64,000 bases of DNA, from NCBI RefSeq assembly GCF_002056795.1, contig NZ_CP020104.1:7759501-7823500 (forward strand). Direction: 5' to 3'. The notes beneath the pieces are model-generated. The model did not search any database. It was not told where the DNA came from and was given only the letters and a program-made list of their open reading frames with translations. The stretch comes from Spirosoma aerolatum (GTDB lineage: Bacteria > Bacteroidota > Bacteroidia > Cytophagales > Spirosomataceae). A program made the translations under genes and the position numbers. The first letter of the stretch is position 1. The number at the start of each line of letters is the position of its first letter. Shown piece by piece: positions 19,964-63,452 of the stretch.

Positions 19964-20905
19964 ATGAAAATTGCAGTGGACGCAATGGGTGGCGATTTTG
20001 CCCCCGAAGCAATTGTGGAAGGAGTAATTCAGGCCGCTGCTGAATTGCCGGAGGATGTGGCTATTGTGTTGATCGGTAAGCAGGCCATTATACAAGCCCT
20101 GCTTGACAAACATAATGCCAGTGCATTGACCAGCATTGAGTTGGTAAATGCCGATGATATTATTGACATGAGTGAGCACCCTACCAAGGCGCTCTCCCAA
20201 AAACCCAATTCCAGCATTGGAATTGGGTTTAAGCTTTTGAAAGACAAACAGGTTGATGCGTTTTGTAGTGCAGGCAATACGGGTGCCATGCACGTCGGAG
20301 CTCTGTTTAGCATCAAAGCGATTGAAGGCATTATGCGGCCCTGTATTGCTGGCTTTGTTCCACAAATTACAGGTGGTCATGCCGTAATGCTCGACATTGG
20401 CGCCAATGCGGATTGCAAACCCGAAATGTTGGCGCAGTTTGGCGAAATAGGCTCTATTTACGCCCAATATACATTTGGTATAGATCAGCCCCGCGTGGCT
20501 CTAATGAACATTGGTTCTGAAGAACAGAAAGGATCATTGGTTGCTCAGGCTGCCCATCAACTTCTTAAAGACAATCGTCGGATTAACTTTGTAGGCAATA
20601 TTGAAGGGGGTGACTTCTTCGATGGAAAAGCAGACGTCATCATTACGGATGGCTTCACTGGAAACGCCATGTTTAAATTGGGCGAGTCCTTTTATGATAT
20701 TGCCAGCCGACGAGGTATTCGTGATGAGTTTCTGGACAAAACCAACTACGAATCGGTAGGGGGTAGCCCAATATTGGGCGTCAATGGCAATGTAATTATT
20801 GCTCACGGGATCTCATCACCTTTAGCGATTAAAAACATGATTGGCCTGGCCATTCGACAGGTTGAGTCCAACGCATATATAAAAATTGCACAAGCATTGA
20901 GTTAG
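19964..20905 (+). CDS. plsX: Phosphate acyltransferase PlsX
   Basis: Makes acyl-phosphate from acyl-ACP and phosphate for membrane phospholipid synthesis; peripheral at the inner membrane. I start it at the ATG at 19964, giving [20 protein letters not shown], the exact family N terminus; the TTG at 19898 would add a poor leader. Also seen are [63 protein letters not shown]-type segment [21 protein letters not shown] and [12 protein letters not shown]. The length of 313 residues is usual. It is followed by fabH after an inverted repeat. Confidence 0.96.
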
Positions 20906-20972
20906 TTTTCTGTTTACAGTATTCGGTTTATCAGTAGCTGATGTGTGAACTGGATACTGTAAACAGAAAACT
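20904..20972. repeat. 19-bp inverted repeat between plsX and fabH
   Basis: AGTTTTCTGTTTACAGTAT at 20904-20922 and its exact complement at 20954-20972 flank a 31-nt loop. The left arm overlaps the plsX stop codon, and the right arm ends 15 nt before the fabH start. There is no terminal T-run, so it probably acts at the RNA level on stability or translation. Confidence 0.75.
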
Positions 20973-20987
20973 TTGTAAATACCACTT

Positions 20988-21971
20988 ATGAGTAAAGCTG
21001 CCATAACAGGAGTCCACGGCTACGTTCCCGACTATGTGCTGACCAATGCTGAATTGGAGCGTATGGTGGATACAAATGATGAATGGATTACAAGCCGTAC
21101 AGGCATTAAGGAACGGCACATTCTCAAGGGTGAAGGTATGGGCTCGTCGCACATGGGGGCAAAAGCCGTAACCGGTCTGCTGGAAAAAACGAACACCAAA
21201 CCCGAAGAAGTCGATTTACTGATTTGCGCGACAACAACCCCCGACTATGTGTTTCCATGCACAGCTAACCTTATCTGCGACATGGTCGGCATCCGTAATG
21301 TAGGAAGCTTTGATATTCAGGCTGCTTGCTCTGGCTTTGTGTATGCGCTCACAGTAGGTTCTCAATTTATTGAGACCGGCAAATACAAAAAAGTAGTTAT
21401 TGTCGGGGCAGACAAGATGTCGGCGATTGTTGATTATACTGATCGCACTACTTGTGTACTGTTCGGTGATGGAGCTGGCGCAGTCCTTCTTGAACCGAAT
21501 GACGAAGGGAATGGCGTGCTGGATTCGATTATCAAATCGGATGGCGTCGGACAAAATCACCTGTTTCAGAAAGCAGGCGGAAGCCGCTATCCGCCTACCC
21601 ACGAAACCGTCGAAAAACGCTGGCATTACGTGTATCAGGACGGCCCTTCGGTATTTAAGTTTGCAGTGAAAAATATGGCCGATGTGTCTGCCGAAATTAT
21701 GGAACGGAACCACCTGAAAGGCGCTGATGTGGCCTGGCTGGTTCCACACCAGGCCAACAAACGCATCATCGACGCGACAGCCCATCGGATGGGCATTGAG
21801 TCGGATAAGGTCATGATGAATATTTACCGGTACGGCAATACCACAGCCGCAACGATCCCGCTTTGCTTATTCGATTATGAAGCACAGTTAAAAAAGGGAG
21901 ATAACCTGGTACTGGCCGCTTTTGGGGGTGGTTTTACCTGGGGAGCCGCCTATGTAAAGTGGGCCTATTAA
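20988..21971 (+). CDS. fabH: 3-oxoacyl-[acyl-carrier-protein] synthase III (FabH)
   Basis: Condenses an acyl-CoA starter with malonyl-ACP to begin fatty acid synthesis. The catalytic triad is complete: Cys114 in [10 protein letters not shown], His254 in VPHQANKRI and Asn284 in [10 protein letters not shown]. The N-terminal motif [16 protein letters not shown] and the C-terminal [10 protein letters not shown] are conserved. At 327 residues it is full length. It lies after plsX and before efp and accBC, so lipid synthesis genes are grouped here. Confidence 0.96.
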
Positions 21972-22055
21972 TTTCATATATGAGGTATGATATAGGATAT
22001 ATTTTGCCGATTATCTACGTCATACATCATACACCTAACATCATATAGTTTAAAT

Positions 22056-22711: not shown

Positions 22712-23203
22712 ATGACAACCCAAGACATACAGCAACTTATTGACTTCATTTCTCAGTCTGGTCTGGACGAAGTCAATATCGAAACAAATGACCTCAAAAT
22801 CAGCGTCAAGCGATATGGTTCGGGTGCTCCGGCAGCTGGTGCAGCAGTACCAGCCATTGCCCCTGTTGCACCAGCTGCTCCTGTAGCACAACCTCAGGCG
22901 GTTGCCCCAACAGCGACATCGGCCCCAACGCCAGTAGCAACGCCTAAGGCAGACACTTCAAACTACGTTACCATTAAGTCGCCCATGATCGGTACGTTCT
23001 ATCGGTCATCAAACCCTGAAACCCCTTCGTTTGTCGAAGTAGGCGACAGTGTGACCGAAGGCAAAGTGGTTTGCATCATTGAAGCCATGAAGCTCTTCAA
23101 CGAAATTGAATCCGAAGTATCGGGCCGCATTGTGAAAGTGCTCGTTGAAAATGCGACGCCTGTTGAGTATGACCAGCCGCTGTTCCTGGTAGAACCCATC
23201 TAA
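22712..23203 (+). CDS. accB: Acetyl-CoA carboxylase biotin carboxyl carrier protein
   Basis: Carries biotin between the biotin carboxylase and carboxyltransferase parts of acetyl-CoA carboxylase, the first step of fatty acid synthesis. The N-terminal MTTQDIQQLIDFISQSGLDE is typical. An Ala/Pro-rich linker runs at residues 38-80. The biotinyl domain begins with VTIKSPMIGTFYRSSNPE and holds the biotinylation motif EAMKLFNEI with Lys127. Length 163 is normal. It is followed by accC after an octamer-repeat hairpin. Confidence 0.96.
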   Translation: MTTQDIQQLIDFISQSGLDEVNIETNDLKISVKRYGSGAPAAGAAVPAIAPVAPAAPVAQPQAVAPTATSAPTPVATPKADTSNYVTIKSPMIGTFYRSSNPETPSFVEVGDSVTEGKVVCIIEAMKLFNEIESEVSGRIVKVLVENATPVEYDQPLFLVEPI

Positions 23204-23206
23204 ACC

Positions 23207-23293
23207 AAAGAGTGAAAGAGTGAAAGAGTGAAAGAGCGAAAAGCAGACGCCCGCTTTTTCTCACTCTTTCGCTCTTTCACTCTTTCACTCTTT
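23207..23293. repeat. Octamer-repeat hairpin between accB and accC
   Basis: The left arm at 23207-23244 is built of tandem AAAGAGTG octamers ending in AAAGAGCG. The right arm at 23253-23293 is its complement with a few mismatches (mostly T/C changes that still allow G-U pairs) and a small length difference. The loop is 8 nt. The right arm ends directly before the accC ATG. A second copy of the same design lies at 62316-62401. Confidence 0.85.
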
Positions 23294-24637
23294 ATGTTCA
23301 AGAAAATTCTTATCGCCAACCGGGGGGAAATCGCTCTGCGAATTATCCGTACCTGCCGCGAAATGGGCATTAAAACGGTGGCCGTCTTTTCAACGGCCGA
23401 CCGCGATAGTTTGCATGTACGTTTTGCCGATGAGGCTGTTTGCATTGGTCCGCCGGTGAGCAAACAATCGTATCTTAGTATCCCTAATATTATTTCGGCG
23501 GCCGAAGTAACCGGGGCCGATGCTATCCATCCGGGCTACGGCTTTTTGTCGGAAAACGCCGAATTCTCGCAAATCTGCGCTGATTACGGTATTAAATTTA
23601 TCGGGGCTACCGCCGATCAAATCAACAGCATGGGCGACAAAGCAACTGCTAAAGCGACCATGAAACTGGCTGGAGTTCCAGTCATTCCAGGCTCCGAGGG
23701 TCTGCTCGAATCCATTGAGCAGGGTAAAAAGCTTTCGGCCGAAATGGGCTATCCGGTCATTATCAAGGCAACGGCTGGTGGTGGAGGTCGTGGTATGCGG
23801 ATTATCCGGGCCGAAAGTGAGTTTGAAAAAGCCTGGAACGATGCCCGTACTGAAGCGGGTGCTGCGTTCGGCAACGACGGACTGTATCTGGAAAAATACG
23901 TTGAGGAACCTCGCCACATCGAAATTCAGATTGTGGGTGATCAGTACGGTAAAGTTTGCCACTTATCCGAACGAGACTGCTCCATTCAGCGTCGTCACCA
24001 GAAGTTGGTCGAAGAAACCCCCTCTCCTATCGTTTCGGATGAACTTCGGCAACAAATGGGCGAAGCGGCCATTAAGGGCGCTCAGGCCATTGGGTACGAA
24101 GGAGCTGGAACAATTGAGTTTCTGGTCGATAAACACGGGAAGTTTTATTTCATGGAAATGAACACCCGAATTCAGGTAGAGCACCCGATTACGGAAGAGG
24201 TAACCGACTTCGACCTGATCAAAGAGCAGATTAAAGTAGCTGCCGGAACCGAAATTTCGGGCCGGAACTACACACCGAAGCTGTATGCTATGGAATGCCG
24301 CATTAACGCAGAAGACCCTGCCAACGGTTTCCGCCCTTCGCCCGGTAAAATTACCAATCTGCATTTTCCTGGCGGTCACGGTGTTCGGATCGACAGCCAC
24401 GTATACAGCGGCTATACCATTCCACCAAACTACGACTCGATGATTGCCAAACTAATTGTTTCGGGCCAGTCGCGGGAGGAAGTGATTACCCGTATGAAAC
24501 GGGCATTGCAGGAATTTGTCATCGAAGGGATCAAAACCACGATTCCATTCCATATCAAGCTGATGGACGATCCAGGTTTCCGATCTGGGAAATTCACGAC
24601 CGCTTTCCTCGAAACGTTTGATTTCAGCAAGCTGTAG
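23294..24637 (+). CDS. accC: Acetyl-CoA carboxylase biotin carboxylase subunit
   Basis: ATP-dependent carboxylation of biotin on AccB. The start at 23294 gives [20 protein letters not shown], the exact family N terminus; an upstream in-frame GTG/ATG reading lies inside the hairpin and is rejected. ATP-grasp motifs are [49 protein letters not shown] and [17 protein letters not shown]. The C-terminal part has the [19 protein letters not shown] region. Length of 447 residues is normal. It ends at a strong palindromic terminator. Confidence 0.97.
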
Positions 24638-24702
24638 TGTAACGCCGGGGTTAGCCCGTAAGTACAAGTAGCTGATGCATGGGTTGTCACCTGTGTTACA
24701 TT

Positions 24703-24748
24703 AAAAAACCGAGGTGTCTTGCTTTAAAGCAAGACACCTCGGTTTTTT
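24703..24748. terminator. 46-bp perfect palindrome, terminator after accC
   Basis: Arms 24703-24725 and 24726-24748 are exact complements with no spacer, starting AAAAAACCGAGGTGTCTTGC and ending in TTTTTT. The A-run and T-run make it a bidirectional intrinsic terminator that separates the acc operon from the transporter gene. Confidence 0.88.
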
Positions 24749-24765
24749 ATTACCCACTGTACTAC

Positions 24766-39226: not shown

Positions 39227-39235
39227 AAAAACTTG

Positions 39236-39297
39236 TAAATTCCGGGGTTGTATTCAACGAATTAACGTTAATTCGTTGAATACAACCCCGGAATTTA
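39236..39297. terminator. 62-bp perfect palindrome between convergent genes
   Basis: 31-nt arms with no loop, centred between 39266 and 39267 (inner sequence ATTAAC / GTTAAT; outer TAAATTCCGGGG / CCCCGGAATTTA). It stands 9 nt after the SNF2 gene stop and 24 nt before the end of the opposing Gfo/Idh gene. It has no T-run but is placed as a bidirectional terminator. Confidence 0.7.
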
Positions 39298-39321
39298 TAG
39301 GTTTCTGGCTATCCGATAGCC

Positions 39322-43748: not shown

Positions 43749-44165
43749 AAATAATGCTAAGTAGATTAATGAAAATACATTAGGTTATTTTCTGTCATCC
43801 CGAGGAACGAGGGATCTTCGGAGACTAGCTAAAAGAGAATCTCCGAAGATCCCTCGTTCCTCGGGATGACAGAAACGTCCTTGCAGCATACGCTAAACTA
43901 TTTTCGTTTGAGTACTTATTAGAAATTAGATACGTTACAAAAACAGTACAAAGATCGCATTCGAGCCAGATAAACCAGCAACTTCTACTGTATATAACGT
44001 TCGAGTCTGGGTTATTCATGCCAGTGTTTTTCCAGCCTGAAATGGGCAAGCAGAAAAAGCCAAATAAACACCTGTTTATCAAGACGTTATTACTATAATA
44101 ATTATAAAAGTAAATAGATAAGGCAGCAAACTATTGGTATCTTTACGGGGAGAAATTATAGGCTA
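43749..44165. other. Divergent regulatory region with a 36-bp inverted repeat
   Basis: 417 bases between the GMC gene (minus) and the AraC gene (plus). Apart from the inverted repeat listed separately it is A+T-rich. TATCTTTA at 44138-44145, 21 nt before the AraC start, resembles the TAnnTTTG box with one mismatch. Confidence 0.5.
43789..43875. repeat. 36-bp perfect inverted repeat
   Basis: Arms 43789-43824 and 43840-43875 are exact complements with a 15-nt loop. The arm contains CTGTCATCCCGAGGAACGAG, which I recall as a dispersed-repeat type motif in this phylum. It lies 41 nt upstream of the GMC start. Confidence 0.85.
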
Positions 44166-61609: not shown

Positions 61610-62317
61610 ATGAGTGCTGCAAAAGCTGCTCAACCCCTTCATCGCGTTTTAGTCGTAGACGACGACGCCGACATCGTAGAGATGCTCGAATACAACCTTC
61701 TTAAAGAAGGCTACGAAGTTCGTACAGCGTTCGATGGCCGGAAAGCTATTGACGTCGCTAAAAGCTATCTCCCCGAATTGGTTTTACTGGATATTATGAT
61801 GCCTCAGCTAGATGGCATCGAAACGGGTCGCCAGCTCCGGGAGATCGCTGAGTTACGCCAGACCTACATCCTCTATCTGACGGCCCGCTCGGAAGAGTAT
61901 TCCGAAGTAGCGGCTTTCGATGTAGGTGCCGACGATTACATTACTAAACCCATCAAGCCCCGAGCGCTGATGAGTCGAATCAATGCCCTATTTCGGCGCG
62001 AAGCCCAGAAGGCCGATCCGGGTGAGCAAATTACCATTGCCGATCTGCTGATCAACCGCAAAAACTACTCGGTTACGCAGAACGACAAATCGGTTATACT
62101 GCCTAAGAAAGAATTTGAACTTTTGTTCTTTTTAGCGCAACATCCCAATAAGGTATGCAGCCGGGAAGAGTTACTTCAGAAAATCTGGGGAGCCGATATT
62201 TATGTGCTTGAGCGCACTGTAGATGTTCATATTCGCAAGCTCCGCGAAAAAATCGGTGATACCCACATCCGAACGCTGAAAGGTGTAGGCTACATGTTTA
62301 CCGACCAGCCTGAATAA
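61610..62317 (+). CDS. OmpR/PhoB family response regulator
   Basis: A 235-residue DNA-binding response regulator. Receiver: acidic pocket VVDDDADIVE, phospho-acceptor Asp61 in ELVLLDIMMPQLDG, and Lys113 in DDYITKPIKPRALM. The winged-helix output domain has KKEFELLFFLAQHPNKVCSR and YVLERTVDVHIRKLREKIGD, ending in RTLKGVGYMF. It pairs with the histidine kinase gene downstream, separated by an octamer-repeat hairpin. The target regulon is unknown; the domain set is like PhoB. Confidence 0.95.
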   Translation: MSAAKAAQPLHRVLVVDDDADIVEMLEYNLLKEGYEVRTAFDGRKAIDVAKSYLPELVLLDIMMPQLDGIETGRQLREIAELRQTYILYLTARSEEYSEVAAFDVGADDYITKPIKPRALMSRINALFRREAQKADPGEQITIADLLINRKNYSVTQNDKSVILPKKEFELLFFLAQHPNKVCSREELLQKIWGADIYVLERTVDVHIRKLREKIGDTHIRTLKGVGYMFTDQPE

Positions 62318-62401
62318 AGAGCGAAAGAGTGAAAGAGCGAAAGAGTGAAAATGGCCTCTGCTGAATTTTCACTCTTTCGCTCTTTCACTCTTTCGCTCTT
62401 T
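62316..62401. repeat. Octamer-repeat hairpin between response regulator and kinase genes
   Basis: A 37-nt arm (62316-62352) of alternating AAAGAGCG and AAAGAGTG units is an exact complement of 62365-62401, with a 12-nt loop. The left arm overlaps the regulator stop, and the right arm ends 13 nt before the kinase ATG. Same design as 23207-23293. Confidence 0.9.
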
Positions 62402-62414
62402 TTATCTTTACACA

Positions 62415-63452
62415 ATGTCCCTCAGTCCCCGCATTATTGCTCTTTTACTGGCTTGCCTGATTTCGGCATTGACACTCGCTTTCCTCACATTTGTCGAAGG
62501 CGTTACGAGCAGTATGTTGTTTGTAGTCGGGCTTTCGTCGTTTGCCATTTCGTTCTTCCTGGTACTCTACGCCATTGAGTTATTGGTTTTTCGGGAAGTC
62601 AACAAGATGTATAAAACCATCCACCAGCTCAAAATTCGCGACTTTAGTATTTCCCGAAAATCGATTATCAAGAACAGCAATCCGTTTAAGAAGCTCAACG
62701 ACGAAATCTTCGTTTACGTCGCCAAGAAGCAGAAAGAGATCGATGAGCTAAAACGGCTGGAACAATTTCGCCGGGAGTTTCTGGCCGATGTGTCGCATGA
62801 GTTGAAAACCCCCATTTTTGCCGCGCAGGGCTTTATTCACACCTTGATTGATGGGGCCGTCGATGACGAGCAGGTTCGAGATAAATTTCTGTCGAAAGCC
62901 GCCAAAAGTCTCGATGGGCTGGATGCGCTGGTAAAAGATCTGGTGGCGCTGTCGCAACTGGAAACGGGCGAAGTAAAAATGAGCTTCGAACGCGTCAACT
63001 TCACGCAGGTAATTCAGGAAATCTTTGACCAGCTCGAAACCATTGCTAAAGCCAAAAATACATCGCTTTCTCTCAAGACCTCACAGCCGGGCCCTGTCTG
63101 GGTAAAAGCTGATGTTCAGCGCATTATGCAGGTTATGACCAATTTGATCGAAAATGCAGTGAAGTATGGAAATGACAACGGCAAAGTGATCGTGCATCTT
63201 GAAGAAGACAAAAAGCACATTATCGTATCGGTCCGCGACAATGGCCCTGGTATCCCCCCCGAACACTTAAGCCGGATATTTGAGCGATTTTACCGGGTTG
63301 AAAAAAGCCGCTCGAAAGAACGTGGAGGAACTGGTCTGGGCCTGGCTATTGTAAAGCACATTCTGAATGCACATAAATCGAAAATTACCGTAATGAGTAA
63401 GGTCGAAAAAGGCACTACCTTTCGATTCAAGCTCGACAAAATGGACGTGTAA
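62415..63452 (+). CDS. PhoR-like sensor histidine kinase
   Basis: A 345-residue membrane kinase with two N-terminal helices (about residues 6-29 and 33-59), no large sensory domain between them, and a short linker. HisKA: His128 in EFLADVSHELKTPIFAAQGF. HATPase: N box NLIENAVKYGN, G1 VRDNGPGIPPE, F box IFERFYRV and G2 GGTGLGLAIVKHI. It is the natural partner of the response regulator in front of it. The lack of a sensing domain suggests that it responds to a membrane or intracellular partner protein. Confidence 0.94.
   Translation: MSLSPRIIALLLACLISALTLAFLTFVEGVTSSMLFVVGLSSFAISFFLVLYAIELLVFREVNKMYKTIHQLKIRDFSISRKSIIKNSNPFKKLNDEIFVYVAKKQKEIDELKRLEQFRREFLADVSHELKTPIFAAQGFIHTLIDGAVDDEQVRDKFLSKAAKSLDGLDALVKDLVALSQLETGEVKMSFERVNFTQVIQEIFDQLETIAKAKNTSLSLKTSQPGPVWVKADVQRIMQVMTNLIENAVKYGNDNGKVIVHLEEDKKHIIVSVRDNGPGIPPEHLSRIFERFYRVEKSRSKERGGTGLGLAIVKHILNAHKSKITVMSKVEKGTTFRFKLDKMDV

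Follow-up and report, generated by a model that had tools for sequence, protein, structure and literature searches.

Gene-junction palindromes of Spirosoma that mostly keep their sites while units, arms and loops change

The window analysed here (64,000 nucleotides of the Spirosoma aerolatum contig NZ_CP020104.1, positions 7,759,501 to 7,823,500) contains two gene pairs whose spacers are filled by long palindromes; the genes and palindrome arms concerned are read on the + strand. In the first pair, the gene of a PhoB-like response regulator (61610..62317) precedes that of a PhoR-like sensor histidine kinase (62415..63452), both names being best matches below the model cut-offs. Their spacer carries a 37-nt inverted repeat with fully complementary (100%) arms 12 nt apart: the 5' arm (62316..62352) shares its first two bases with the end of the upstream TAA stop codon, the loop GGCCTCTGCTGA occupies 62353..62364, and the 3' arm (62365..62401) ends 13 nt upstream of the kinase start codon. 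The second pair consists of accB (biotin carboxyl carrier protein, 22712..23203) and accC (biotin carboxylase, 23294..24637), both identified by NCBIfam equivalog models. Here the repeat is near-perfect, with 36-nt arms that are 92% complementary and 15 nt apart; the 5' arm (23207..23242) begins 3 nt past the accB stop codon and the 3' arm (23258..23293) runs up to the accC ATG, at a distance of 0 nt. The predicted RNA fold of the response regulator/kinase hairpin has an energy of -64.1 kcal/mol (z = -13.9 vs shuffles) and that of the accB/accC hairpin, with an 8-nt terminal loop, one of -55.5 kcal/mol (z = -12.4). The original prediction for this DNA had described these two spacers as inverted repeats of tandem octamers, placed between the genes named above and filling the space from the stop of one gene to the start of the next. 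These points hold, including the tandem arrangement: the doubled octamer matches 12 times in the window, every match being exact, against 0.21 expected from shuffled sequences with up to 2 mismatches allowed. A search of the window against Rfam 15 at the gathering score returned 0 matches.

The gene run of the accB/accC hairpin contains further palindromes made of other units. The plsX/fabH spacer holds one of GTTTTCTGTTTACAGT-type sequence (20904..20972, + strand), whose stem begins within the plsX stop codon, and the fabH/efp spacer holds a weaker edge-to-edge palindrome of TATGAT-type units (21969..22055, + strand; score 12). Past accC, a hairpin with a T-run (24702..24749, + strand), containing GGTGTCTTGCTTT and having by eye the shape of an intrinsic terminator, lies outside the family and provides a contrast to it; similar hairpins are found 3' of accC in several relatives. 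At the other site, the tail between palindrome and kinase start (62402-62414, TTATCTTTACACA) is TATCTTTGCCCC-like and conserved in several Spirosoma. It resembles TAnnTTTG, a Bacteroidota promoter element, and the kinase may therefore also have a promoter of its own.

As had been predicted from the two window copies, the octamers are dispersed, and a search of the genome and its relatives found many copies, so that the window pair is not the only one. The 16-mer AAAGAGYGAAAGAGYG has 272 matches (133 + 139) in the 7,959,595-base contig (7.96 Mb), with 0 matches for its reversed control in the whole genome, and it is present in 36/36 Spirosoma genomes, with 1 to 326 matches each. A two-octamer hairpin was detected in 38/200 sampled genomes of the family, belonging to 7/36 genera, and in a scan of the phylum in 2/395 sampled genomes, both of them Spirosoma. 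The AAAGAG/AATGAG units are thus local, although the palindrome design is wider (see below). The AAAGAG hairpin was also seen once (L229:5002-5082) in a contig labelled Flavobacterium sp. SUN052, by transfer, contamination or mislabelling.

To describe the copies of S. aerolatum, 72 stretches around 16-mer matches were taken and genes were called by a hexamer score trained on that DNA. They contain 83 distinct octamer clusters, of which 69 reach a stem score of 14 and were mapped, while the 14 without such a stem were dropped; the copy list is incomplete, as copies beyond 3.58 Mb were seeded by a pattern blind to arms with a G in front. In fifteen of the 69 hairpins more than 20 nt lie within a called gene, in some cases since the reading frame enters the arm. 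The loops of the two window copies had been judged unrelated, which is not so genome-wide: GCTGACGC or its complement occurs in 14/68 loops, against 0.04 in base-shuffled loops, and the accB/accC loop itself contains GCAGACGC, by eye 1 mismatch away from it. In the fetched S. aerolatum DNA, 15 of the 32 occurrences of GCTGACGC lie within 60 nt of an octamer. Ten proteins encoded beside 7 hairpins, a small sample, include SusC-/SusD-like proteins, MacB-type permeases, Cas1 and uronate enzymes, and no functional theme stands out among them. Octamer palindromes precede SusD-like genes at three loci (L014, L023 and L061), the upstream gene being SusC-like in the one scanned, and another (L026:3070-3151, at genome position 2528169) separates cas1 from a short gene downstream (88 codons) that is probably cas2.

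The mapped hairpins are not placed at random with respect to genes. By the gene calls, the flanking genes are codirectional at 60, divergent at 8 and convergent at 1 of them, and the 352 non-overlapping gene pairs of the same DNA comprise 248, 51 and 53, respectively. By orientation, most hairpins may thus sit inside operons, as had been claimed; set against the background, the codirectional enrichment (60/69 vs 248/352, p = 0.0045) is real yet moderate. Sharper than this enrichment are the near absence between convergent genes (1/69 vs 53/352, p = 0.0006) and the fit of the hairpins between stop and start codons. Among the 60 codirectional hairpins, the onset of the stem precedes the end of the stop codon by a median of 2 nt, and its other end precedes the next start by a median of 4 nt. 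The gap to the start is -3 to 15 nt in 49 of them, the gap to the stop is -6 to 15 nt in 41, both gaps fall in these ranges in 34, and in 14 exactly 4 nt separate the stem from the start. Immediately 5' of the outermost AAAGAG, 59 left ends have T in 32, G in 12, A in 9 and C in 6 cases; immediately 3' of CTCTTT, 39 of 64 right ends have A and 2 have T. A TA target duplication, for which ends of the form TAAAGAG...CTCTTTA could be taken, was considered and rejected: only 32/59 left ends have the T and 39/64 right ends the A, and the three presence/absence junctions described below show by eye no constant duplication.

The octamer is one among many units in which the junction palindrome is built. 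In a sample drawn from the window and the stretches around octamer copies, 153 codirectional spacers of 40-220 nt contain no octamer array; the stem score reaches at least 12 in 56 of them (0.4% of shuffled sequences), and 22 carry edge-to-edge palindromes with a score of at least 10 (shuffled, 0.4%). Their units include AATGATTG, AATGGATAATGAACAATG, GTATGAT and GATTGACT. An over-representation of inverted repeats between genes has been reported for prokaryotes in general, in a survey of their genomes (PMC4060949). Edge-to-edge spacers with a score of at least 12 were counted in samples of 60-200 kb, which give rough rates: 4/21, 10/71, 10/49, 4/27 and 4/29 in five Spirosoma samples (four of which share DNA with the region orthologous to the window; one region was chosen for its many hairpins), 0/21, 7/23, 3/28, 0/26 and 1/24 in five other genera of the family (samples surrounding accC), and 3/24, 0/16, 0/15, 2/24 (0.4 expected) and 0/20 in five genomes further out. 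The palindrome design is wider than the octamer, and patchy. The class as we delimit it comprises palindromes of about 55-150 bp in which a short loop separates two inverted arrays of near-repeats, 7-8 nt each, and which begin at one gene's stop codon and leave a few nt in front of the next gene's start codon.

Comparison of orthologous spacers showed that most palindromes keep their site between species. The accB/accC and response regulator/kinase sites, both chosen because they bear hairpins in the window, were followed furthest. An edge-to-edge palindrome separates accB from accC in 29/29 parsed Spirosoma genomes (30 were taken of the 34 with a close match, 1 was unparsed, and 2/36 had no match). 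In other genera a stem was found there in 21/36 parsed genomes, edge-to-edge in 20 (40 of 99 matching genomes had been taken by nearness plus one per further genus, and 4/40 were unparsed). The response regulator/kinase site has a stem in 28/30 genomes, edge-to-edge in 22, built of several units. In a second region (S. aerolatum positions 1793700-1901000, picked for its density), comparison by eye found a hairpin at all 7 octamer sites in Spirosoma sp. 48-14 (G021) and at all 6 sites covered by the contig of S. panaciterrae (G014). Orthologous codirectional spacers were compared in the two regions. In 21 comparisons of edge-to-edge spacers of S. aerolatum with a relative, the relative is edge-to-edge in 17, has only a stem in 2 and has neither in 2; S. 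aerolatum spacers with neither feature face an edge-to-edge spacer of the relative in 4/126 comparisons, one of them a threshold case. These comparisons share sites and are not independent.

At these retained sites, the sequence of the arms, the unit and the loop change while the arms remain complementary. The accB/accC palindrome is built of AAAGAGYG, AATGAGTG, GATTGAATGATTG or GCGTGAAC within Spirosoma, with heptamers in one degraded case, and of GTTTACGG, GATAGTC or GGTCATTG in other genera, and the palindrome at S. aerolatum position 1835136 has both a different unit and a different loop in S. panaciterrae. The suggestion that the elements are selected gains from this retention (29/29 and 28/30 genomes at the two window sites, and by eye 7/7 octamer sites of the second region), but a mutational process that keeps the arms alike is a live alternative.

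Within single hairpins, too, the arms are coupled: facing octamers agree on C or T in 82/111 cases (34 hairpins), against 52% between octamers of different hairpins, and changes such as AATGGGTG occur in both arms of a single copy (L068). We asked whether the remaining mismatches betray pairing in RNA. The stems of 192 pooled hairpins have 179 G.U and 142 A.C mismatches in the sense RNA (p = 0.044), and a first count on 42 S. aerolatum hairpins had given the opposite direction, with 23 G.U and 28 A.C. Since the p value is 0.044 and related sequences are not independent, selection on sense-RNA pairing is marginal at best: wobble-pair counts would support it at most weakly and leave room for a process acting on DNA. 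Loops have also been inverted. By eye, the loop in Spirosoma sp. 48-14 is the reverse complement of that of S. aerolatum (G000) at 2 of 9 compared sites, namely at window positions 62353-62364 and at genome position 1796715, and two S. aerolatum hairpins 4.8 kb apart have one loop in opposite orientations. Such inversion suggests that the arms exchange sequence or switch templates. In E. coli, a process is known by which imperfect palindromes become more perfect (PMC7202029).

At some junctions, one species has a whole palindrome where its near relatives have a short orthologous spacer without one. Junction 1 measures 17 nt in one and 5 nt in the other of S. aerolatum and S. panaciterrae, and 89 nt, with a palindrome, in Spirosoma sp. 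48-14. Junctions 2 and 3 measure 13 and 13 nt, and 9 and 9 nt, in S. aerolatum and Spirosoma sp. 48-14, and 127 and 84 nt, respectively, with a palindrome, in S. panaciterrae. The flanking genes match by eye except for the last codons of one gene. Over one 6-kb stretch, Spirosoma sp. 48-14 is 91% identical to S. aerolatum and S. panaciterrae 83-85%; as the former is thus the nearer relative, the palindrome at junction 1 is a gain by parsimony. Those at junctions 2 and 3 may be gains in S. panaciterrae, or clean losses before S. aerolatum and Spirosoma sp. 48-14 split. Elsewhere in the S. panaciterrae genome, the insert of junction 3 has one relative (79% over 71 nt) and a second, partial one; a search of 7 other genomes found none. 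At its three places the 5' arms begin alike, after TAA or TAG triplets that are putative stop codons. Sequence is therefore common to different sites, though the copies are not identical. The proposal that the element is mobile is partly borne out by these data: three junctions differ by a whole palindrome between close species, one of them, by parsimony, through a gain, but none of the three palindromes belongs to the AAAGAG class, and no transposase could be linked to the copies by copy number or in the 4 Y1_Tnp loci examined.

Taken together, we propose that these palindromes form a large class in Spirosoma and its kin, whose members are refreshed by copying of one arm from the other at the DNA level and are kept because they act as hairpins in mRNA; we put the probability of this reading at about one half (0.5), and its RNA part is inferred. 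The arms would likely be refreshed by quasipalindrome template switching, or else by an exchange between arms, which would also flip the loop. With less certainty, the untranslated spacer would fold in the mRNA into one stable hairpin reaching from the stop codon to about 4 nt before the next start. This hairpin might protect the spacer or lead to its processing, for instance as a substrate of RNase III, or might hold stop and start close together, and could in this way set the expression of the two cistrons. Position, a long stable stem, freedom of sequence and retention of the site would all fit a role of the fold in intercistronic mRNA, and the odds given above are carried by retention and arm coupling. 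Going further, and only tentatively, it is possible that at operon junctions of Spirosoma and related Bacteroidota the fold and not the sequence is what a site inherits, arm copying allowing the unit to drift or to be swapped while pairing persists, so that a structure could be conserved across a family that shares no letters, and that the palindrome is an RNA zipper free of sequence that packs the spacer and brings the stop beside the start; we rate this more specific picture below even odds. Several observations limit the hairpin reading. Eight of the 69 hairpins lie, by the gene calls, between divergent genes, where an intercistronic role makes no sense. As many junctions have no palindrome, one is dispensable at a junction; as junctions 2 and 3 could be clean losses, loss may not be rare; and retention could also reflect the lack of a means to excise palindromes.

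The strongest rival is a family of dispersed palindromes without any role, selfish or neutral, which arise by self-copying or by replication accidents, survive where they do not disturb codons, and have arms kept alike by replication errors. It accounts for the arms and for the presence or absence of whole palindromes at short junctions. The similar but non-identical palindromes of S. panaciterrae with their like 5' arms, the loop found in both orientations 4.8 kb apart, and the nearly equal numbers of G.U and A.C mismatches are likewise what it would lead one to expect. It accounts less easily for an accB/accC palindrome kept in 29/29 parsed genomes of the genus, or for S. aerolatum edge-to-edge spacers being edge-to-edge in the relative in 17 of 21 comparisons (with a stem in 2 more), and the avoidance of convergent junctions (1/69 vs 53/352) is not readily predicted by neutral insertion. 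We therefore regard a roleless family as a serious but less probable account.

That the palindromes act as DNA, by extruding a cruciform or by binding a nucleoid or repair protein, seems improbable to us. The arms are symmetric between strands and alike at the DNA level, and the loop inversions would suit such a site, but a protein that reads sequence is unlikely where no sequence is fixed, and the stop-to-start fit and the codirectional bias would be left unexplained.

Still less probable is a family of REP elements moved by a RAYT, a Y1 transposase. GTGGCTGACGCA, exact in 3/68 loops, recalls the tags of REPs, and 29/36 genomes have Y1_Tnp matches, which are candidate RAYTs. However, the 7/36 genomes without a Y1_Tnp match still have 3 to 72 matches to the 16-mer, and the two counts correlate poorly over the 36 genomes (Spearman 0.29, p = 0.09). 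None of the 4 Y1_Tnp loci examined (L200, L218, L219 and L220, 3.4-5.5 kb each), a minority of those of the genus, contains an octamer array, and RAYT genes are described as flanked by REPs (PMC2817692). REP stems measure 5-13 bp and bear a GTAG or CGTC end tag (PMC3733652); the 69 hairpins have stem scores of 15-40, and no GTAG/GTGG or CGTC end tag was found, the base 5' of AAAGAG being variable.

A role as intrinsic terminators or attenuators finds its support in strong hairpins that end in CTCTTT, followed by two more T at the response regulator/kinase copy, and we consider it as improbable as the REP reading, since the stem is not G+C-rich, 2 of 64 right ends continue past CTCTTT with T against 39 with A, and a single one of 69 hairpins lies between convergent genes, where 25/34 background spacers carry strong stems; terminator scans list none of the hairpins and are uninformative, as they also miss the T-run hairpin at 24702-24749.

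We looked for known systems to which the class might belong. REP and BIME elements are likewise short dispersed palindromes outside genes, present in many copies and plausibly transcribed, and roles in mRNA stability have been proposed for them. The Spirosoma stems differ in being mostly 20-40 bp long and made of tandem 7-8-mers, and in having different sequences at the same site in different species; a survey of REPs does not name Spirosoma in its main text, as judged by a term search (PMC12306157). Heptamers also make up the short tandem repeats (STRR) found between genes of cyanobacteria. The TAACTGA heptamers of Beggiatoaceae and some Bacteroidetes resemble the present units in length (7-8 nt), in lying between genes, frequently with a start codon a few nt downstream, and in containing stops. 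Each Spirosoma arm by itself is such a head-to-tail run of 7-8 nt units outside genes, to which the second array is added in inverse orientation: TAACTGA arrays are described as direct repeats with no particular RNA structure predicted (PMC4679880), whereas the two facing arrays of Spirosoma form one near-perfect palindrome. MITEs, exemplified by a minisatellite-bearing one of Porphyromonas gingivalis (PMC4596501), are also dispersed non-coding elements with inverted repeats; the Spirosoma elements are palindromic throughout, their units vary with site and species, and they lack a constant terminal repeat and, by eye in the three presence/absence cases, a constant duplication of the flank. The template-switch mutagenesis of quasipalindromes in E. 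coli resembles the process proposed here in perfecting imperfect palindromes, but is introduced in the source as a mutation hotspot rather than as a means by which junction palindromes persist while their units turn over (PMC7202029). Translational coupling by termination and reinitiation would be the context if the hairpin holds stop and start close together; the account of it in PMC6728339 speaks of stop and start codons that overlap and not of a spacer looped out between them. No description of comparable junction palindromes was found in the open-licence literature, searched mostly at the level of titles and abstract openings. What appears to be new is thus a set of dispersed intergenic palindromes with arms of tandem units and a stop-to-start fit, in which fold and place are inherited rather than sequence.

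Searches for conserved RNA and DNA structures normally depend on conserved letters or covarying columns. In the present class, place and fold persist across the genus but unit, length, loop and orientation vary, so that family models will probably miss it. A selected fold would make the palindromes a sequence-independent device at the gene junctions of an important phylum. If they are purely mutational, they would document arm-to-arm copying in nature, at many sites within one genome, and the correction of palindromes would become measurable in comparative data.

Further palindromes were noted in passing. Loci of S. arboris (G002, L190-L193) and of another Spirosoma (G022, L194-L198) carry a spacer palindrome of CACGGAGA-type units (GTAAACACGGAGATAACGGAGATT...). 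A G+C-rich module like GACCGGnCCGCCGGnGCGGTGA is found repeatedly within palindromes, across several species and genera, including the accB/accC spacers of four genomes (G035, G022, G042 and G088) and two loci of S. aerolatum (L019 and L036). In the window, positions 43789-43875 hold a perfect 36-nt inverted repeat with TGTCATCCCGAGGAACGAGGGATCT, a palindrome of a different class, reminiscent of dispersed repeats of other bacteria. Finally, a loopless 38-nt palindrome lies between convergent genes at 39229-39304, a place that is occupied by a longer version in S. panaciterrae and by a different palindrome in S. arboris.
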